DNA from: a virus
Strand: one strand, 5' to 3'
Length of the DNA stretch: 64,000 nt
Virus record (IMG/VR): IMGVR_UViG_3300017963_000024
Span: 22,833 to 86,832 of that record
Shown: positions 2,585 to 46,359 of the stretch, piece by piece
Numbering within the stretch: the stretch's first letter is position 1
Layout of the letters: each line of letters starts with the position of its first letter
The notes under the pieces: generated by a model
Told to the model about the DNA's origin: nothing
The model's input: only the letters and a program-made list of their open reading frames with translations
Database searches by the model: none
Program-made: the position numbers and the translations under genes

Positions 2585-3763
2585 ATGGGACGGAAGCCTA
2601 AGAGTGGTGACGCCGCTGATTATCGAAAAACTTTGATCGAACTGGCAAGCACAGCAGTCGAGAAGAGGTTCAAGAAGAAAGGCGGTGTTGCCATCGAGAC
2701 AGCTTCCGACTCCCTCATTACTCCCTCGCTGTGGGTGTCCACGGGGAGCTTGGCCCTAGACCGGGTCTGCCGGGGTTTCAACCCCGGTGGAATCCCGGTC
2801 GGCCCCAAGCGAGGTCGGCTTGTCCATATTGCGGGCAAGTGGAGCACACTCAAAAGTTTGATCCTCGACCATCTGTTCAAGTCGGTTCAAGAGTTGGAGG
2901 GGATTGCGGTGTGTACTGAGTCGGAGGGGAGTCGGGACCCGTACTTTCCAGACCGCATTGGACTTGATCTGTCGGAAGTGAAGATCATGTATCCAGATAC
3001 GATTGAGTCTGCTTTCGATGCGGGACTCAGCTTTGCCAGTACAATCCGTGCTGTCGATAAGGAGATACCTATTATTTGGGGTGTTGATTCAATCGAGGCA
3101 ATGGAAGCGAAGAAGACGGCAGACTCAGGGTTGTCTGAGAGTGGTTCCTTCCACTATGGAGGAGGAAGGACACAAGCTTTAGGTGCGGCCTTCAGAAAGG
3201 TCGTAGGCGAAACGAACAAGCACCCAACAACTGTAGTTCTCATCAACCAGACACGGACAAACCCAATGATCCTGTTCGGTGACAAGAGCACAACGGGGGG
3301 AGGCAATGCACCTCACTTTTACGCTTCTCTCGAAATCTTTCTCAATCCCTCACAGAAGGGTAAAGTGTTCTCCCCGTATCGCGGATCGAGGCTCCCGAAG
3401 GAACTCCGAAAGAAGCTAGGCTTGAAGGTTACGGAGAAGGGGCACGTCGCTGGCTTTTGGGTTCATGCCCGTGTAAACAAGTCCAAGGTTGGAGGAACGC
3501 TTGGGCGGGAATGTGACATCTACCTCGACTTCCAAACCGGGATCAATCCTGTAGCAGGACTTCTTGAAGTTCTGCTCGAAGAAGGCGTTGTGGACTTCGA
3601 TGGTAAGAAGGTTGTCCACCATCTTCCAACTGCAAAGAAGCGAACATTCTCTTCACAAGCTTTGTGGGAGGAGTGGATTCTGGACAATCTCGAAGTTCTC
3701 GGGCCGGAAAGTGTGAGGCGCAATGGCAAGAGGACTAAGAAGAAGAGACGTAAAGAAGATTGA
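2585..3763 (+). CDS. uvsX-like: UvsX/RecA-family recombinase
   Basis: This 392-residue protein has the RecA core: a substrate-loop start STGSLALDR (52-60), a P-loop at 84-91 (GKWSTLKS), a Walker B-like IIWGVDS, and an L2-like loop TTGGGNAPHFYAS. The P-loop has Leu where most RecA proteins have Gly before the Lys; T4 UvsX also departs from consensus there, so this supports a UvsX-type protein. It would form filaments on single-stranded DNA and drive strand exchange in recombination-dependent replication. It is preceded by its SSB and followed closely by SbcD- and SbcC-like genes. The C-terminus is very lysine-rich. Confidence 0.88.
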   Translation: MGRKPKSGDAADYRKTLIELASTAVEKRFKKKGGVAIETASDSLITPSLWVSTGSLALDRVCRGFNPGGIPVGPKRGRLVHIAGKWSTLKSLILDHLFKSVQELEGIAVCTESEGSRDPYFPDRIGLDLSEVKIMYPDTIESAFDAGLSFASTIRAVDKEIPIIWGVDSIEAMEAKKTADSGLSESGSFHYGGGRTQALGAAFRKVVGETNKHPTTVVLINQTRTNPMILFGDKSTTGGGNAPHFYASLEIFLNPSQKGKVFSPYRGSRLPKELRKKLGLKVTEKGHVAGFWVHARVNKSKVGGTLGRECDIYLDFQTGINPVAGLLEVLLEEGVVDFDGKKVVHHLPTAKKRTFSSQALWEEWILDNLEVLGPESVRRNGKRTKKKRRKED

Positions 3764-5778: not shown

Positions 5779-6284
5779 CCGTCGAGGAGTGTCAGGACTT
5801 TCTCCCGCTTTGGCACGGCAAAGGACTAAAGCTTGCACCAAAGGTTGAAGCGGTTACTGATTGGCTTCTCAGTCAGTATCAACCAAGAAATCGGGAATCT
5901 CTTCCTCCTGATATCGCTAAGGTGATGAAGGATTTTGGTGGACCGATCAAGGAATGCTTCCACACGACGCAGACGCTCGTGGCGAGCTTGGACAGAGCAC
6001 AGTACGTCGAAGGCTTTGTATTCAACTGTGCGATCATTCCCATCGAACACGCTTGGATCGAAGTAGACGGGTACGTTGTCGAACTGACTTTACGGTCAGA
6101 CCCGGAAAGAAAGGGTGAAGCGGTTATCACTCCTGACCCGGAGTGGATCTACATAGGAATTCCTATGGGTACTTCGTTTGTTTTGCATACGATGTTGGAG
6201 CGGAAGTTCACTGGCCCACTGAAGTATGTACTAGCAGCGAAGGCTCTTGGGTATCCAGAGGGAGAGTATCATGCTTGCTTTTGA
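5775..6284 (+). CDS. Hypothetical protein, about 169 aa
   Basis: ATG at 5775 overlaps the upstream stop (ATGA); an in-frame ATG at 5769 is an alternative start. A central stretch, IEHAWIEVDGYVVELT, recalls phage proteins that carry an H-W-x-x-x-D-G-x-x-x-D/E-T core, but no catalytic role can be assigned. The 3' end overlaps the sbcC-like gene. Confidence 0.6.
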   Translation: MTVEECQDFLPLWHGKGLKLAPKVEAVTDWLLSQYQPRNRESLPPDIAKVMKDFGGPIKECFHTTQTLVASLDRAQYVEGFVFNCAIIPIEHAWIEVDGYVVELTLRSDPERKGEAVITPDPEWIYIGIPMGTSFVLHTMLERKFTGPLKYVLAAKALGYPEGEYHACF

Positions 6285-8154
6285 GTTTCTGGAATTGGAA
6301 AACTTCATGTGCTTCCAATCCCCCGTGAAGATACCGCTACGGGATCAGGGTTTGGTTGTCATCAAAGGTGACAACCAAGTCAGCAACGTTTCCGATGCGA
6401 ACGGAGTTGGAAAGACGGTGGTGGCCGCTGATGGTTTGGCATGGGTTCTATACGGACAAACCCTTCGGGGCCTCAAGGCAGATGCCGTCATCAATCGCTT
6501 CTCTGGAAAGAAGACGTGCAAAGGCAAGCTAACGTTCGAGAGTGATGGTGAGTTGTGGAGGATCGTCCGTGAGCGCCCGCATCGAATCTATGTCGTCAAT
6601 GGAAGCAATGAGGAATGGACGGGACCGGAAGCTGAAGAGGTCATCCAGCGAAAGATTGGCATTGGCTTCAAAACTTTCTGCAATGCCGTTGTGTTCGGTC
6701 AGGGTGCATTCGAGCGATTTGCCAAGGCCGATCAAGCAACGAAGCTTCGGATGTTCGATGAGATTCAAGGGGTGGACTTCAGAAAGATGAGGGAAGCCGC
6801 TGTTGCTCTCCGTTCCAAGATCGAGGCAGAGCAATCTATCGTTGAATCAAAGCTCCAATCGCTGCGAAGCACTGGAGTAGACCTTGCCGACGAGAAGGAA
6901 CAACTCGAAAGGGAACGAGACGACTTCAAAGCGGCGCAGAAAAAACGGCTGGCAGCGCGTCGTAAGGCGGAGGAAGAAGCGTTGGACGAATACCTCCGGG
7001 CCAAGGAAGCTTTCGAGGAGTTCAAGGCAGAACAGGCTAAATTACCGGAATTACAGCGGAAAAAGGCAAAGCTTGAGAAGGCTGCTGAGATTCTGGACGA
7101 GATGAGAGACGAACTAAACTCCGCAGAGTCCGAGAAGCGGGTTATCGACACGATCATTGCCAACGAGTTGAAAAGCTTGGAAAAGCTTGTGGCAGAAGGA
7201 GTTTGTCCTACCTGCCGCCGGGAGGTGCTCGATAGGGGTGATGTGAATGTCGTGACGGAGGCTTTCGAGCGTGAGGTCGCACCCTCCATTGAAGCTCAGA
7301 AGGAAGCTGAGAAGACTATCACTAGGTGTGTAAAAGCTTTGAACAAGGCTCAAGCGAGGTACGACAAGGCTGTTGCCGACAGTGGGGGTGTGACTTCAAT
7401 CGAGATCGCCCGCTTAGAGGCAAAGTACGATGACGATGCCGAGGACATCCGACGAAAACGTCTGAAGACCCTCAAGGCCGCTGCGGAGAAAGCACGCGAC
7501 GAGTACCAAAATACTGTAACAACTGATACTTGGGGCGGTGAGCAAGCTTTAGCTAGGATAGTAGAGAAGCAACTGAAGGTTGGCAAGGAACTCAAGAAGC
7601 GAGTGAAGGAAAACGATAAGCTTCAACTCAAGTACGACATGGCGGACTATTGGGTGGTTGCGTTTGGTGATCGTGGGATTCGCTCCCGATTCCTCATGTC
7701 TCAGGCCGACTTTCTCAATGCTCGACTGTTGCAGCATCTCGAAACGTTAGCGGGTAGCGAAGCCGAAGTGCTCCTCTCACCAGAGAGGACAACAGGAAAG
7801 GGGGCAACCAAGCAGCAATTCAACATTCAGACGAAGTGGAATTGGGGCGGAGAAACCTACGAATCAGAAAGTGGAGGTCAAGAACGTCGGGTAGACCTTG
7901 CAATCTTTCTGGCTCTTCAAGACTTGGCAGAGAAAACCTCCGCGTCCCCGTTTCCTCTCCGAATGTGGGACCAGCCAGAAGAGGGCTTGGATGCGACGGG
8001 GTTGGAGATGTTCGGTAGGTGGATGAAGGTCGAAGCTCGTCGCAGAGGAACAGGTTTTCTAATCACACACAATCCAATTTTGGCGGAGGCAGTACAGGCG
8101 GATCAGGAATGGACAGTGCAGCTAACAGAAGATGGAAGTCGCTTAGTGCTCTAA
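6271..8154 (+). CDS. sbcC-like: SbcC/Rad50-type ATPase subunit (T4 gp46-like)
   Basis: This is an SMC-like ATPase of 627 residues counted from the ATG at 6271 (site gagggagagtatc), preferred over the in-frame ATG at 6247. The N-terminal P-loop is NGVGKT at 44-49. Two coiled-coil arms surround a zinc hook CPTC at 312-315. The ABC signature SGGQERRVDLA starts near 534 and Walker B MWDQPEE near 565, and a switch-like ITHNP follows. It would form a DNA-end resection complex with the SbcD-like protein. The coiled coil is short, as in phage gp46. The 3' end overlaps the HNH gene. Confidence 0.88.
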   Translation: MLAFEFLELENFMCFQSPVKIPLRDQGLVVIKGDNQVSNVSDANGVGKTVVAADGLAWVLYGQTLRGLKADAVINRFSGKKTCKGKLTFESDGELWRIVRERPHRIYVVNGSNEEWTGPEAEEVIQRKIGIGFKTFCNAVVFGQGAFERFAKADQATKLRMFDEIQGVDFRKMREAAVALRSKIEAEQSIVESKLQSLRSTGVDLADEKEQLERERDDFKAAQKKRLAARRKAEEEALDEYLRAKEAFEEFKAEQAKLPELQRKKAKLEKAAEILDEMRDELNSAESEKRVIDTIIANELKSLEKLVAEGVCPTCRREVLDRGDVNVVTEAFEREVAPSIEAQKEAEKTITRCVKALNKAQARYDKAVADSGGVTSIEIARLEAKYDDDAEDIRRKRLKTLKAAAEKARDEYQNTVTTDTWGGEQALARIVEKQLKVGKELKKRVKENDKLQLKYDMADYWVVAFGDRGIRSRFLMSQADFLNARLLQHLETLAGSEAEVLLSPERTTGKGATKQQFNIQTKWNWGGETYESESGGQERRVDLAIFLALQDLAEKTSASPFPLRMWDQPEEGLDATGLEMFGRWMKVEARRRGTGFLITHNPILAEAVQADQEWTVQLTEDGSRLVL

Positions 8155-21778: not shown

Positions 21779-22831
21779 ATGGCTACTGACAAAACTGAGT
21801 TTGTTACTCCTGAAGGGTTTGTTTTCTACGTTCCTACCTCTGATGCCGATGTAATCATGCAACAGAGGAAGGAAGGCCGTCGAACCCTTCTCGAAATTCT
21901 AGAAGGAAGGGGATATGAGCCTTCCGAAGTGACCGAACCTTCCGAACCCTTGGAAGTGGTCAAAGGCTCCGAGCCTGAACTTCCGATTGAACTTACAGAC
22001 GTGGTCAACGAACCGAAGGTTCAAACGAAGCCACTTCGGAGAACAATCGTTGACCGTTCCCGTGAGTCAAAGCTTGAAGAACTGACAAGCCTTCTGACTC
22101 AACAGAACGAAGCTTTGAAAGCTCAGTTGCTTGAACTGAGGAAAGAAGCCAACGGGAACGAACCTGAAGCCAACGAAGCCACTTCGGAAACGGTCAACGG
22201 TCCTGTCACTCCTGAAATGGTCGAAGCCTTTTTCGTTTCCATTCTGGCAACAATCGGAAGGGATGTTAAAGCCTTCGTTTCCACGTTCGTTCGGTTCACC
22301 TTCAAGCTTGTTTCCTTCACCTTCAAGCTTGCCACTTCCCCCCTTTGGGTTCCTATCAAGTGGCTTGTCCGGTTCGGATTGTACCTGAACGGAGTTTCCC
22401 CTTCGGGAACGGTCAAGCCTTCAGGAACCGTCAAGGCTTCGGTTCCTTCCGAACCTTCCGAACCTTCGGGAACGAAGGGAACGAAGGGAACGAAGGGAAC
22501 GAAGGGAACGAAGGCAAAGTCAAAGCTTATCCCTGAAGCCACTTCCTACAAGGCTTTGACCGAACGAATCCGAACGAACTTTGGTTACGGTGCCGACCGT
22601 TGGCTTTGTGGCTGGATTGCAAACGAAGGTGAGGAACCGGGAGACGTTCCCGAACTTTCCAAAAGCCCTAGGATTGCAGACACGTTGGCTTTCCTTCATG
22701 CAATCAAGGAACGTGTTTTCAACGGGAACGAAGCTTTGACCGTCAAGTGGTACAACGAACACGTTCGGCAAGACAACGAATGGAAGGTTCGGAAGGGGAA
22801 GGCTTCAGCTAACGTCTACATTTCAGAGTGA
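21779..22831 (+). CDS. Hypothetical membrane-associated protein with GTK repeats, 350 aa
   Basis: ATG at 21779 follows gggaaggtgagaa. Residues 1-100 are acidic and Pro/Glu-rich; about 100-130 form a coiled coil (LEELTSLLTQQNEALKAQLL). Residues about 155-205 are hydrophobic with Lys and Arg breaks (FVRFTFKLVSFTFKLA) and could lie in or on a membrane. A linker with PSEPSEPSG and five GTK units precedes a C-terminal globular domain with several Trp residues. Codon and word use (GGAAC, GAAGG, TTCGG) differ from the rest of the window. No family is recognised. Confidence 0.65.
   Translation: MATDKTEFVTPEGFVFYVPTSDADVIMQQRKEGRRTLLEILEGRGYEPSEVTEPSEPLEVVKGSEPELPIELTDVVNEPKVQTKPLRRTIVDRSRESKLEELTSLLTQQNEALKAQLLELRKEANGNEPEANEATSETVNGPVTPEMVEAFFVSILATIGRDVKAFVSTFVRFTFKLVSFTFKLATSPLWVPIKWLVRFGLYLNGVSPSGTVKPSGTVKASVPSEPSEPSGTKGTKGTKGTKGTKAKSKLIPEATSYKALTERIRTNFGYGADRWLCGWIANEGEEPGDVPELSKSPRIADTLAFLHAIKERVFNGNEALTVKWYNEHVRQDNEWKVRKGKASANVYISE
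22468..22512 (+). repeat. Five tandem 9-bp repeats (GGGAACGAA)
   Basis: Five exact copies within the 21779 gene encode the GTK units. The same word also occurs singly through the island, so it may have grown by slippage. Confidence 0.9.
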
Positions 22832-30234: not shown

Positions 30235-30873
30235 ATGAGAGATCAGAGGTTCTTCGGGGTTCTTACAACCCTGATTGTGCTGACGCTTCTTGGGCTTATT
30301 CTTCTGGCGTCTCCAACTTACGGTCAGGAAACCCCAACCGACACTCCAACGGACACGCCTACGGAGACTCCGACAGAGACTCCAACGGATACGCCTACGG
30401 CAACTCCAACAGACACCCCAACCGAAACACCGACACCCACCGACACGCCTACAGAGACTCCAACTGACACTCCAACGGACACGCCTACCGACACACCTAC
30501 TTCGACGCCAACCAGCACTCCAACAGCAACGCCAACAACCACATCTACGAACACTCCGACACCAACAGCTAGACCCGCTGGTTTCATGGGACCAATCTCA
30601 TCGTGTCCAAGTCCTCCTTGTTGCACAAACATCATGGGAGGTCTGACCAAAGGTTTGAAGACGGTTTCGGTTAAGCAGACAGGCACGGCAACTATGAAAG
30701 TGATGTGCCGCGTCTGTGACGACTTCAGTTGCCCGTTTGTGCAGATTGGTTCTGACATTACCGATTCAGCCGCACTCCTGACCTTTAGTGACTGGTGTTC
30801 AGAGTTAAAGCTTTGCGTCGATCCTTACACAGACGGCTCTTCAATGGGATGGGTCCGGTCTACAGGCAAATAG
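30235..30873 (+). CDS. Secreted protein with TPT(D/E) repeat stalk, 212 aa
   Basis: Residues 1-31 are a long signal peptide ending SPTYGQ. Residues 32-115 are TPTDTPTE-type repeats, a rigid proline/threonine stalk that could be glycosylated. The C-terminal domain (about 120-212) has CPSPPCC, then [18 protein letters not shown] and [10 protein letters not shown], and resembles the C-terminus of the protein at 31631. The gene lies just upstream of the packaging genes; whether the product is a virion part or is secreted by the infected cell is unknown. Confidence 0.65.
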
Positions 30874-33375: not shown

Positions 33376-33652
33376 CGACGTTGATTTCAAGTTTACTTGG
33401 AAGATTCTCTCTTGGCCTGAACAGGAAGAAGGCTTTCTAACAAAGCTTTTTGATCCTGATCGCCTTGGATTTCCTCTCGATCCTGACGAGAAGATTACTT
33501 CCGAGCGTATTAGAAGAGCCTTGGAATCTCCTCAATTCCGAGATGAGTTCAGACGGAACTTGAATGAGATTGTGGAGGAAACGGCTAGAAAGATATTTCG
33601 AGAAGCTTTGGAAAAGGGTTTTACGGCCATTGAGCTAGAGCCAACACCATGA
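33365..33652 (+). CDS. Small hypothetical protein before the large terminase, 95 aa
   Basis: The ATG overlaps the terS-like gene by 11 bases. The product is acidic and helical with a DPDE-rich middle. It overlaps the large terminase by ATGA. No family is recognised; its place suggests a packaging accessory. Confidence 0.55.
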   Translation: MATNDVDFKFTWKILSWPEQEEGFLTKLFDPDRLGFPLDPDEKITSERIRRALESPQFRDEFRRNLNEIVEETARKIFREALEKGFTAIELEPTP

Positions 33653-36093
33653 GTGAAGTAGCCTTTGATCCGCTTTCGGTAATCGACGACAGCACTCCTT
33701 GTGCTTTTAGTCGGTTTCCTCAGACGGACGACGAACTTTGGGAGTTCGTGGCAACGGTTTGGGGCGTTGAGATCCCAAGGAAAAAGATTTGCCCCCAGCA
33801 CTGTGCTCCGTTCGATGCTTTTGCCGATGCCTTCTTCTGTAAAGCGGAAAACGCGATCTGGCTCGCAAGCCGTGGGTTGGGTGGCAAGAGTTTCCTTCTT
33901 GCTACGCTGGGCCTCACTGAAGCAGTTTGTCTTGGGGCGACGGCAACGGTCCTTGGTGGATCAGGCGCACAATCACAAAACGTTCACAGGTATATGCAAG
34001 ATATGTGGAGTTACCCTGCCGCGCCACGTCAATTGCTTGCGGAGGACCCCACGAAAATGAGGACCGTTCTTAAGAACGGTGCCTATGTTCAAGCTTTGCT
34101 GGCTTCATCCACCAGTGTTCGTGGCCCTCACCCTGTAAGGCTTCGGTGCGACGAGTGCCTCACTGGAGATTCACTCGTTCTAATGGCTGATGGTTCTAAG
34201 AAACGTTTGGACAGGGTAGAACCCTCAGACAAGGTGGTTACTTTCTATAGGGGTTGTTTATGTGAGGGTGTTGTGTTAGCCTCTGAGTATAAGGGTGTCA
34301 GAGAGACACTAAAGCTTAGAACGGAGGCTGGTAATGAAATCGTCTGCACAAAAGAACATCCGGTCCTCGGAGAAAGTGGTTGGCGAGAAGCGTCTACCTT
34401 TGCAGCGGGGGATTACATCTGGCTATCCGATAACTCTGCCGACGTACTCCCACCGGGACGTGAAGAAGTGTCTCGACTGTGGGAAAGCTTTGAAGCACAA
34501 GATGGCTCGGCTGGTGACGGGGTACTGCAAAGAGTGTCTAACGGAGAAGGTCAAGAAACCGAAGTTCTGCGAAGAATGCGGGACTCAGGTTGGAAGCCAA
34601 TCGAAGCTTTGTCGGCCCTGTTGCTTCAAACGAAGGAAGAAGTCAAAAGCTTTTTGCAAGGATTGTGGAACCGAATTGCGTTTAGCTTCTACGAAGCGTT
34701 GTCGCCCCTGCCACCTCAAGTTCATGTCCTCGGAACGCATGGTTTCGAGGATGTCGGCTTCCAGAGCTACGGCTATGAAAAACAGGGAGGAGAGATCGAG
34801 AGCCGAAACACAGGCGGCGGAGCTTCTTCGACTGTTCAAGATAAACTTTCGAGAGCAAGTTCCAGCCTCCCGTTATATTCTGGACTTCGTTCTGGACGAC
34901 TACAAGGTTGTGATCGAGGTACACGGGGCGTATTGGCACGACAGGCCCGCTGCGAAGAAAAGGGATCAAGCAAAAAAGAAAGCTTTGGAGAAGAGGGGTT
35001 GGCAGGTTCTTTTCTGGCGAACCGAAAAGCTCCACCTGTGGTGGCTCGATCTCGTGTCGCCTCCATTCAACAAGCTGGGAGAAGTGGAGTCTATGATATA
35101 AGAGTTTCTCCTGGCAAGAGCTTCGTCGCTAACGGTATCATTGTTCATAACTGTGACGAGATGAAGCTCGACATTCTCGATGCGGCTCTAGGCCAGCCGA
35201 TGTCGAAGGACGGAATTCCCGCTCAAACAGTAATGTCCTCGACGCACCACTATCCTGACGGTACGGTCACAGAGCTTCTGAATCGAGCCAAAGAACGTGG
35301 GATGCCCGTCTATAACTGGTGCTACCGGGAAAGTATGGCCGGGGGCTGGCTTTCCCCTGCCGATGTGGAAGCCGCCCGTGCTCGTGTTCCACTGGCAATG
35401 TGGGATGTTGAGTTTGAGCTTCAGGAGCCGAGTCCTGAAGGACGCGCCATCCAGCCACAAGCTGTAGAGTGGACTTTCGATCAAAGCTTGGGATACTTTG
35501 AAGGCCAAGCGAATGAAAAGATCGTGCTTGAACCCCCACAGGAGGGGGCTAAGTACGTGACCGGGGCAGATTGGGCGAAGGAGAGTGACTGGACAGTCAT
35601 CATTACGTTCCGAATTGACGTTACTCCTTGGAAGCTTGTCATGTTCGAGCGGCTTGGCCGACGCCCTTGGCCGGAAATGGTTGAAAAATTCAATGACAGG
35701 CTTACTCGCTACCGAGGTGTCGGCGTCCACGATGCAACAGGGCTGGGAAATGTTGTGGATGACTTCGTGACCAACAGAGCCGCCAGAGGGGAAGTTTTGG
35801 TGGGAAAGAATAGGGCTGAAATTTTCTCTGAATACGTTGCAGCACTGGAAAACCGTGAAGTGGTTGCACCGAGAATTGACTTCATGTATGCAGAGCACAA
35901 GTATTGCACGGTGGATGATTTGTGGGGGAGTGGGCACCCGCCTGATTCCTTTGTTGCTGGTGCGCTGGCATGGCGAGGCAAACGTTTCAGCCAGTCTACG
36001 GGAACCGTAAGGTCCATTGTGTCCCACCCGAAGTGGAAAGAGCGGTCGGACGAGAGGATCGCACGTCGGCTTGAACCTTGGAAGTTCGACTAG
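33649..36093 (+). CDS. terL: Large terminase subunit interrupted by an intein
   Basis: The 814-residue precursor has a Walker A SRGLGGKS (74-81) and a Walker B segment VRLRCDE ending at residue 169. There the intein (170-501) interrupts it, and the host protein resumes at CDEMKLDILDA. The C-terminal nuclease domain shows TGADWAKESDW, GVHDATGLGNVVDDF and DSFVAGALAWRG with conserved acids. Splicing would give 482 residues, a normal size. The enzyme packages DNA into the prohead by ATP-driven translocation and cuts it. The intein sits beside the catalytic Asp-Glu pair, so an unspliced precursor should be inactive. Confidence 0.92.
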   Translation: MSEVAFDPLSVIDDSTPCAFSRFPQTDDELWEFVATVWGVEIPRKKICPQHCAPFDAFADAFFCKAENAIWLASRGLGGKSFLLATLGLTEAVCLGATATVLGGSGAQSQNVHRYMQDMWSYPAAPRQLLAEDPTKMRTVLKNGAYVQALLASSTSVRGPHPVRLRCDECLTGDSLVLMADGSKKRLDRVEPSDKVVTFYRGCLCEGVVLASEYKGVRETLKLRTEAGNEIVCTKEHPVLGESGWREASTFAAGDYIWLSDNSADVLPPGREEVSRLWESFEAQDGSAGDGVLQRVSNGEGQETEVLRRMRDSGWKPIEALSALLLQTKEEVKSFLQGLWNRIAFSFYEALSPLPPQVHVLGTHGFEDVGFQSYGYEKQGGEIESRNTGGGASSTVQDKLSRASSSLPLYSGLRSGRLQGCDRGTRGVLARQARCEEKGSSKKESFGEEGLAGSFLANRKAPPVVARSRVASIQQAGRSGVYDIRVSPGKSFVANGIIVHNCDEMKLDILDAALGQPMSKDGIPAQTVMSSTHHYPDGTVTELLNRAKERGMPVYNWCYRESMAGGWLSPADVEAARARVPLAMWDVEFELQEPSPEGRAIQPQAVEWTFDQSLGYFEGQANEKIVLEPPQEGAKYVTGADWAKESDWTVIITFRIDVTPWKLVMFERLGRRPWPEMVEKFNDRLTRYRGVGVHDATGLGNVVDDFVTNRAARGEVLVGKNRAEIFSEYVAALENREVVAPRIDFMYAEHKYCTVDDLWGSGHPPDSFVAGALAWRGKRFSQSTGTVRSIVSHPKWKERSDERIARRLEPWKFD
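34156..35151 (+). mobile_element. Intein (332 aa) in the Walker B motif of TerL
   Basis: The N-terminal splicing block is CLTGDSLVLMADGS with Cys1; block B is GNEIVCTKEHPVL with the T-x-x-H motif. The C-terminal blocks are VYDIRVSPGKSFVANGIIVHN, ending His-Asn, with Cys as the first residue of the C-extein. All residues needed for protein splicing are present. No LAGLIDADG or HNH motif is seen in this frame between blocks B and F; that stretch looks like unstructured filler kept open while the +1 frame codes an endonuclease. Confidence 0.93.
34334..35101 (+). CDS. Candidate homing endonuclease nested out of frame inside the TerL intein
   Basis: This 255-codon gene is in the +1 frame relative to terL and lies wholly within the intein. 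Its ATG is six bases after GGAGG (34323-34327). Residues 46-126 hold six CxxC pairs (46/49, 65/68, 79/82, 93/96, 108/111, 123/126), enough for three zinc knuckles. Residues 155-235 match the Vsr/DUF559-like fold: a helix, then SRYILDFVL with D184, VVIEVHG with E195, H202, and a basic helix followed by GWQVLFWRTEKL. Such EDxHD-type nucleases include known homing endonucleases of introns. Zinc knuckles probably give target binding. It would cut intein-free terL genes. Confidence 0.88.
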   Translation: MKSSAQKNIRSSEKVVGEKRLPLQRGITSGYPITLPTYSHRDVKKCLDCGKALKHKMARLVTGYCKECLTEKVKKPKFCEECGTQVGSQSKLCRPCCFKRRKKSKAFCKDCGTELRLASTKRCRPCHLKFMSSERMVSRMSASRATAMKNREERSRAETQAAELLRLFKINFREQVPASRYILDFVLDDYKVVIEVHGAYWHDRPAAKKRDQAKKKALEKRGWQVLFWRTEKLHLWWLDLVSPPFNKLGEVESMI

Positions 36094-45159: not shown

Positions 45160-45612
45160 ATGGCAACGGAAGCAATTGCTGGCTTTAAGTCGATGGTCTA
45201 CATCTCGCAGACTGAGGATGGAACCTACAACCGTCTGTGCGAGTTGAAGGAAGTCACTCTCAGCATCGAGCGTGATACCATCGACGTGTCCAACCACTGT
45301 AGCGGAGGGTGGAAAGACAACATCAACGGGATGGCTCAGTGGAGCGCGTCGGCGGAAGCTCTCTACATCTTCGACAACACGGCACAGGAAGATGTGTGGG
45401 ATGCCCTGATCGACGAGAATCCACTGTGGTTCCGCTTCGTTCCTCGTGGCTCGGAAGGTGTTGTCGGTACGCATTACAAGTACGAGGGTCAGGGGATCAT
45501 TACTTCTTGGGAACTCTCCGGGCCGAATGACGATGCGGCTGCAATCAGCATCGAGATTCTCGGTGTAGGCCAACTCGACAGAGCAGTTCTGGAGGCGGGT
45601 GACAATCCATAA
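45160..45612 (+). CDS. Major tail tube protein
   Basis: ATG at 45160 follows aggaggactttcag. At 150 residues it has the length and pattern of TP901-1-like tube proteins: VTLSIERDTIDVSNHCSGGWKDNINGMAQWSASAEALY, then a W-F-R-F stretch and GQGIITSWELSGPNDDAAAISIEILG. It is followed by the chaperone pair and the tape measure, the standard order. Confidence 0.85.
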   Translation: MATEAIAGFKSMVYISQTEDGTYNRLCELKEVTLSIERDTIDVSNHCSGGWKDNINGMAQWSASAEALYIFDNTAQEDVWDALIDENPLWFRFVPRGSEGVVGTHYKYEGQGIITSWELSGPNDDAAAISIEILGVGQLDRAVLEAGDNP

Positions 45613-45643: not shown

Positions 45644-46036
45644 ATGCCAAAGTTTCGCACAGTTCCGTTTGATCTGCTGGACAGGCCACGGAACATCAGG
45701 TTCGATGTCAATGCGCTGGCCGATCTCGAAGAAAAACTCGGGATCGGTCCCGCGCAAATTTTTTCTGAGGAACGTACCGGCTACGCCACGATTCGTGGTC
45801 TGCTTTGGGCTGGTATAAAGTGGGAAGACAAGAGGATTACCGTCGATAGGGCGGGCGAACTCTTGCAGACTTTCCTCGAAAAAGGCGGCGAGTTAGAGAA
45901 GCTGATGATGCCTCTGGCTGAAGCTTTGACCAACTCAGGTATCTTCCCTAGAGAGGAGGAGATACCTGAATCAAAAAACGAGGAAGCGGGGGGGACGACG
46001 AAGGAAAACCCCTCCGTACCTTCAGAGAATGGATAG
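45644..46036 (+). CDS. Tail assembly chaperone, short form
   Basis: ATG at 45644 follows gaaaggagagcactacg. The 130-residue product has a folded N-terminus (IRFDVNALADLEEKLG, TIRGLLWAGIKWED) and a hydrophilic C-terminus. Like lambda gpG, it is probably made in excess and a fraction of ribosomes shift -1 near its end to make a longer fusion. These proteins coat the tape measure during tail assembly. Confidence 0.8.
   Translation: MPKFRTVPFDLLDRPRNIRFDVNALADLEEKLGIGPAQIFSEERTGYATIRGLLWAGIKWEDKRITVDRAGELLQTFLEKGGELEKLMMPLAEALTNSGIFPREEEIPESKNEEAGGTTKENPSVPSENG
45973..45994 (+). promoter_or_regulatory. Programmed -1 ribosomal frameshift site
   Basis: The heptamer A AAA AAC (45973-45979) is in the correct phase of the chaperone frame (tcA AAA AAC), the classic -1 slippery site. 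Nine bases later a run of seven G (45988-45994) is also in slippery phase. The -1 frame stays open from here into the extension that ends at 46359. One or both sites could work. Confidence 0.8.
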
Positions 46037-46359
46037 ACGCTGCTTTACCTGCTGCGTTGGGGCCGTTGGCACTCTCTCACGATGAATTCTTTCGGCTTAC
46101 CGTGAGAGAGTTCAATGAGCTAATTGAGGGCTACAAGTGGCGCGAGCAGCGAAAGTGGGAAGAAAACGCGGTCGTTGTTGCGACAACGATTGCTCCACAT
46201 CTCAAGAAAGGGAAGAGTCTTTCACCGAAAAAGCTTTTACAGAAGTGGGGTATAGGGGAAGTTAGCCGCGAAGACAAAATATCAAAGTTTGAGGAGCTAA
46301 AGCGACGACTCGAAGAACGTCAACGACGTGCTAGGATGGCGGAGAGGAACCTACGGTAA
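45979..46359 (+). CDS. Tail assembly chaperone extension (-1 frameshift product)
   Basis: In the -1 frame the sequence reads TFREWIDAALPAALGPLALSHDEFFRLTVREFNELIEGYKW, typical of the second half of siphophage chaperones (gpT-like). There is no ATG at its beginning; the first alternative start is a TTG at 46057 without a ribosome site. It is therefore expressed as a fusion (45644-45979 joined to 45979-46359). The stop overlaps the tape-measure start. Confidence 0.8.
   Translation, partial: RGSGGDDEGKPLRTFREWIDAALPAALGPLALSHDEFFRLTVREFNELIEGYKWREQRKWEENAVVVATTIAPHLKKGKSLSPKKLLQKWGIGEVSREDKISKFEELKRRLEERQRRARMAERNLR

Follow-up and report, generated by a model that had tools for sequence, protein, structure and literature searches.

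A probable lambda G/GT-type programmed −1 ribosomal frameshift in the tail chaperone gene of an uncultivated phage

Gene content of the locus

The window, i.e., the whole stretch of 64,000 bases that was analyzed, belongs to a virus record of 86,832 bases in full. On its plus strand it carries the gene order tail tube, G, T (in the −1 frame) and tape measure, with overlapping G and T frames (Table 1).

Table 1. Coordinates of genes and proposed signals at the tail chaperone locus (positions within the window)
Feature	Position	Strand	Evidence or remark
Major tail (tube) protein gene	45160..45612	+	Upstream of G; PF06199 Phage_tail_2 E 7.7e-18, phrog_1407 E 5.7e-26
G, zero-frame ORF of 130 aa, tail chaperone-like	45644..46036	+	phrog_2115 tail protein E 1.6e-18; phrog_183 tail chaperone E 4e-4
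Shine-Dalgarno-like AGGAGG, proposed upstream stimulator	45954..45959	+	Gap of 13 bases to the slip heptamer
Last −1 frame stop, TGA	45967..45969	+	5' limit of the frameshift box
T, −1 frame extension	45970..46359	+	Without own ATG near its 5' end; phrog_7377 E 2e-10, phrog_16333 E 3.7e-10
A AAA AAC slippery heptamer, proposed slip site	45973..45979	+	X_XXY_YYZ phase of G; in-phase XXXAAA[CG] in 22/24 loci
Spacer of 6 bases before the main stem	45980..45985	+
Possible outer stem	45980-45983 with 46020-46023	+	RNA fold
Proposed stimulatory hairpin, 5' arm (GCGGGGGGG)	45986..45994	+	Holds the G7 run (45988-45994); fold, L011 pairing
Proposed stimulatory hairpin, 3' arm (CCCCTCCGT)	46009..46017	+	Fold, L011 pairing
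Tape measure protein gene, 1204 aa	46359..49973	+	Downstream; phrog_13339 E 3.4e-67, PF10145 E 1e-14

Judging by its matches to phrog_2115 and phrog_183, G is homologous to a described family of tail chaperones; it closes with a stop codon at 46034-46036 and gave no match against NCBIfam or PDB sequences. In Pfam it reached only PF11836, a gene transfer agent (GTA) protein (GTA-gp10), which it resembles weakly and below the cut-off of that model (E 0.022). T resembles TIGR02216 (rcc01693 family), also weakly and under the cut-off (E 0.0073), and this family is presumably tied to GTA; the two resemblances hint that the GTA pair may be split G and T.

T ends at a TAA (46357-46359) that shares a TAATG overlap with the tape measure ATG at 46359. 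Its first in-frame ATG is codon 122, and its first TTG lies at 46057, 21 bases past the G stop. A search of T against the phages collection returned no match, and the T frames of the window, of its closest relative found here (L011), of GBK2 and of Silence match the same two PHROGs, 7377 and 16333. When the T proteins were aligned from the slip site, they displayed a common core with a (L)xPxEfxxlTpxEf-type stretch, and in the window the homology takes in LRTFREW, a stretch that precedes any possible start codon of T. The first-pass annotation had described the −1 frame as a gpT-like extension without a start of its own, a description borne out by the lack of an ATG before codon 122 and by the conservation of the frame in relatives.

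Elsewhere in the window, the gene at 33649-36093, upstream of the portal gene and in what we take to be the terminase position, carries an intein (PF14890, E 4.6e-10), the only domain that Pfam shows there. Inside this gene, on the same strand but in a different frame, lies a complete 255-aa ORF (34334-35101) of DUF559/Vsr-type endonuclease character (PF04480, E 3.2e-12; PF03852, E 2.7e-6), which would be a gene for a homing endonuclease concealed in a shifted frame within an intact intein frame; the available text of PMC11855218 describes a hidden endonuclease that is possibly comparable. Low-complexity proteins are encoded at 1265-2575, 21779-22831, and 30235-30873 (acidic D/E tract, GTK repeats, PTDT/PTET repeats), and a RecA-like gene (2585-3763; PF00154, E 1.7e-23) has an SMC/AAA-type gene close by at 6247-8154.

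Collection of related loci

Searching G against the phages collection with tblastn yielded 40 records, six of which were fetched. A six-sequence alignment (A1) proved too divergent for use as a scan profile, and a three-sequence alignment (A2) was used to scan for relatives, which recovered 25 viral loci and one genome locus; the best of these was L011, whose 55% identity is the upper bound among relatives of G. Three further loci were obtained with T as query. Single queries with G and with the major capsid, tail tube, and tape measure proteins found no relatives in viral_contigs, and L011 as query returned nothing beyond itself and one contig already known. The resulting 36 sequences (the window, and L002-L036; L001 is the window itself and L037-L039 are repeats of earlier contigs) were reduced by 12 near-identical ones to 24 dereplicated loci, window included. 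Removed were L003 and L004 (as L002), L010 (as L009), L015 (as L012), L017 (as L016), L019 (as L018), L021 (as L020), L024 (as L023), L026 (as L025), L034 (as L033), L035 (GBK2 again), and L036 (as L014). Related pairs persist within the 24 (L014/L020, L022/L027, L012/L013), so that p-values for the heptamer and for stability, as well as for the Shine-Dalgarno (SD) element, overstate independence.

The overlap was defined as the stretch from the last −1 stop to the G stop. Structure and SD figures refer to the 22 loci in which an XXXAAA[CG] heptamer was found, and where an overlap held several heptamers the last one was taken.

Conservation of the slip heptamer

Both AAAAAAC and GGGGGGG begin on the third codon position of the ORF 45644-46036. 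As words, neither is rare nor enriched in the window (AAAAAAC: 9 observed vs. 13.4 expected; GGGGGGG: 7 vs. 10.2), and rarity per se was dropped as a signal; the frameshift signal is instead phase, position, and conservation. An in-phase XXXAAA[CG] was found in the overlaps of 22 of the 24 dereplicated loci; the overlaps hold 22 such heptamers in phase, compared to 2 and 0 in the other two phases, and against expectations of approximately 0.8 from the rates in the G body and 3.2 from those in the downstream T region (8 in 7494 nt), the latter background being higher because of Lys codons in the −1 frame. The types were CCCAAAC (7), AAAAAAC (6), GGGAAAC (6), GGGAAAG (1), CCCAAAG (1), and AAAAAAG (1); L013 and L025 had no XXXAAA[CG] heptamer in phase. 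Assignment of the heptamer is less certain in L008, L018, L028, and L029, given their long overlaps, and in L008, L018, and L002 the candidate lies far from the stop or is accompanied by weak structure. In the window the heptamer sits 18 codons before the G stop, farther than in most relatives. At the end of G in L002 (T-frame relative, 2690-3019), a run of nine A was seen, where the two frames could be joined by slippage, either ribosomal or transcriptional.

A chaperone annotated by the depositors as a joined, two-piece gene is found in Bacillus phage Silence and in Paenibacillus phages Wanderer and Bob, the latter two having an identical AAAAAAC close to the G stop. GBK2, the Syntrophomonadaceae phage, and vir515 share the same layout and have no joined annotation. 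The −1 frameshift site that had been proposed in the tail chaperone gene from the sequence is well supported by the relatives, and the coordinates and phase given for A AAA AAC in the window were confirmed.

Elements upstream and downstream of the heptamer

In dnaX-like cassettes, the SD-like element lies about 10-14 bases upstream of the slip heptamer. The AGGAGG of the window falls within this range and is the top anti-SD match of the locus among all 16-mers; the strongest match of L011 is found at the same place, and its gap of 13 bases, read by eye from the sequence, is the same. Across the 22 loci, the anti-SD strength of the upstream 16-mer was above usual (median fraction 0.084), albeit not everywhere (L030, 0.636; L028, 0.484; L023, 0.475), and this enrichment may partly reflect the Glu-rich tails of G. 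The AGGAGG also sits within a predicted upstream hairpin (45940-45964), which might modulate the site.

Downstream, RNA folded from position 45980 paired the two arms of the proposed hairpin and formed the outer stem (−21.5 kcal/mol). The statistical significance of this hairpin is modest: over 66 nt, z was −1.91 and 8 of 200 dinucleotide shuffles were as stable, while over 60 nt the values were −2.83 and 1 of 300. For a 50-nt window starting three bases past the heptamer, the median fraction of same-locus windows that were as stable was 0.025 over the 22 loci and 0.091 at the locus under study, with L008 (0.596) and L002 (0.289) as exceptions and L018 (0.157), L027 (0.145), and L030 (0.119) as intermediate cases. 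The mean dinucleotide z was −2.18, with only 12 of the 22 loci below −1.64. In 18 of these loci the longest helix followed a spacer of 3-12 bases; it was farther off in L005, L007, L002, and L027. A scan of the plus strand for a terminator at the frameshift site found none.

L011 has the same pairing register relative to the heptamer (i with 45−i) and keeps all nine pairs of the window, four of them unchanged, two altered on one side, and three on both. Sliding the partner by 1-3 columns lowered pairing to at most 72%. Covariation of this extent was reached by 56 of 500 shuffles and, with two sequences compared, is suggestive only.

Role of the G run

The run of seven G had been put forward as a second slippery site whose closeness to the first might set an unusual ratio. 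Its slippery phase was rightly recognized (X_XXY_YYZ), and the reported spacing of nine bases holds as the distance from the last base of one heptamer to the first base of the other, the number of bases in between being 8. Its role as a slip site is not supported, as none of the 23 other dereplicated loci has an in-phase G7, and the run pairs with 46009-46017 as an arm of the hairpin. In relatives, the 5' arm consists of other, often G-rich sequences that keep the pairing and not the slip motif. Because the in-phase G7 is, among the 24 loci, confined to the window and the pairing is kept in L011, the run is best read as a hairpin arm that at the same time codes for the glycine-rich linker in the fusion protein. 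Most likely, it is one arm of a slip-promoting RNA hairpin and not a second slip site. The G run was also considered as the main slip site, and this was rejected.

Two readings would still grant the run some slippage. It might double as hairpin arm and weak second slip site, which we regard as unlikely; ribosomes that open the hairpin unslipped would then get a second chance, the ratio would be self-adjusting, and two GT fusions would arise that differ only over five linker residues (RGSGG or EEAGG). Unlikely, too, is an arrangement in which A AAA AAC and G GGG GGG act in series, both feeding the −1 frame and jointly setting the G:GT ratio. The phase of the run within an open −1 frame would allow it, and both tRNAs could presumably re-pair perfectly after the shift. 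However, besides the absence of the motif from the other loci and the survival of the pairing without it, the position of the run as 5' arm means that the hairpin is open while the run is decoded, so a ribosome slipping there would presumably do so with its stimulator already melted, and the sequence 5-9 bases past the run offers no comparable structure, the next stem (about 46036-46058) being weak. Among the publications listed for two or second slippery sites, no phage tail example was found; six consecutive Gs do not occur in the available text of PMC10885494 or PMC3711429, nor seven Gs in that of PMC5009743.

Frame break and separate expression of T

A miscounted homopolymer in the metagenomic contig could have split one continuous gene, since homopolymers are error-prone and one added base in the G run creates a single reading frame of 238 residues. 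We consider this very improbable: all 23 other dereplicated loci have a frame break at the equivalent place, many with the G stop 0-3 codons past the heptamer, so that the fusion is not in frame there, and a continuous gene would not need the slip heptamer, SD-like site, and hairpin that are all present. Hardly credible is the separate production of T, whether from an internal start at TTG 46057 or through translational coupling with the stop of G. Although the TTG lies near that stop, it lacks an SD sequence (anti-SD duplex energy of +2.2 kcal/mol, vs. −8.0 at the start of G and −5.8 at that of the tape measure gene), the homology of T starts upstream of it, and an in-frame ATG comes only at codon 122.

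Proposed mechanism and implications

With a probability of roughly 90%, we interpret the locus as a lambda G/GT-type case of standard programmed −1 ribosomal frameshifting. The analysis shows the sequence elements with their phase and conservation, as well as the pairing in relatives; from these we infer slipping at A AAA AAC as well as its frequency and efficiency. The majority of ribosomes would translate G up to its stop, while a minority would move one base back on A AAA AAC and read on in the −1 frame as far as 46359, producing a G-T fusion of 238 aa. The AGGAGG, the heptamer, and the hairpin 6 bases downstream probably act jointly. By analogy with lambda, G would bind the tape measure protein and T the tail tube protein.

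The window would accordingly add a previously unannotated G/GT frameshift in an uncultivated phage, an ordinary and well-formed case of a known class. The loci gathered here form a compact test set of chaperones of the phrog_2115/phrog_183 type that have an XXXAAAC site and a hairpin close by, in some cases together with an SD-like element. In GBK2, the Syntrophomonadaceae phage, and vir515, the annotation could become that of joined genes. As a caution, a homopolymer flanking a slip site need not be a further slip site and may instead form one arm of a hairpin.

Comparison with known systems

The window shares with lambda G/GT the gene order and two chaperone forms that would arise from overlapping frames by a −1 shift late in G, ahead of the tape measure gene. 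Its G is of the phrog_2115/phrog_183 type, and the likeness drawn here is one of layout. The heptamer, A_AAA_AAC, is also unlike that of lambda, which we take to be GGGAAAG. In the lambda scheme, as given in the available text of PMC5009743 (which cites Levin 1993 and Xu 2004 on G/GT), G binds the tape measure protein, T binds the tail tube protein, and slippage occurs in a small fraction of ribosomes. The same portion of text states that the haloarchaeal virus HCTV-2 has A_AAA_AAC as its g-t shift site, and that in E. coli this heptamer is far less shift-prone than A_AAA_AAG, a possible point against the present reading. For a phage tail chaperone cluster, 7% frameshifting is given in the available text of PMC3711429, and several motif types are described in that of PMC10885494 (PRFect).

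Other counterparts are Silence (KT001912) and Wanderer (NC_054985), which share with the window a homologous G (31-39% identical to that of the window by tblastn), a layout that is annotated in them as a joined, two-piece coding sequence, an in-phase CCCAAAG or AAAAAAC, and a downstream hairpin; in contrast to the window, their slip site lies 0-1 codons before the G stop. The combination of an SD-like element, an A-rich heptamer, and a simple hairpin recalls the E. coli dnaX cassette, and the spacing in the window (13-base gap after AGGAGG, 6 bases before the hairpin) is dnaX-like, the latter value falling within the 5-9 bases between heptamer and hairpin used in many studies according to the available text of PMC5009743. 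Since dnaX is an unrelated gene with A_AAA_AAG in place of A_AAA_AAC, this likeness concerns the mechanism only and not membership.
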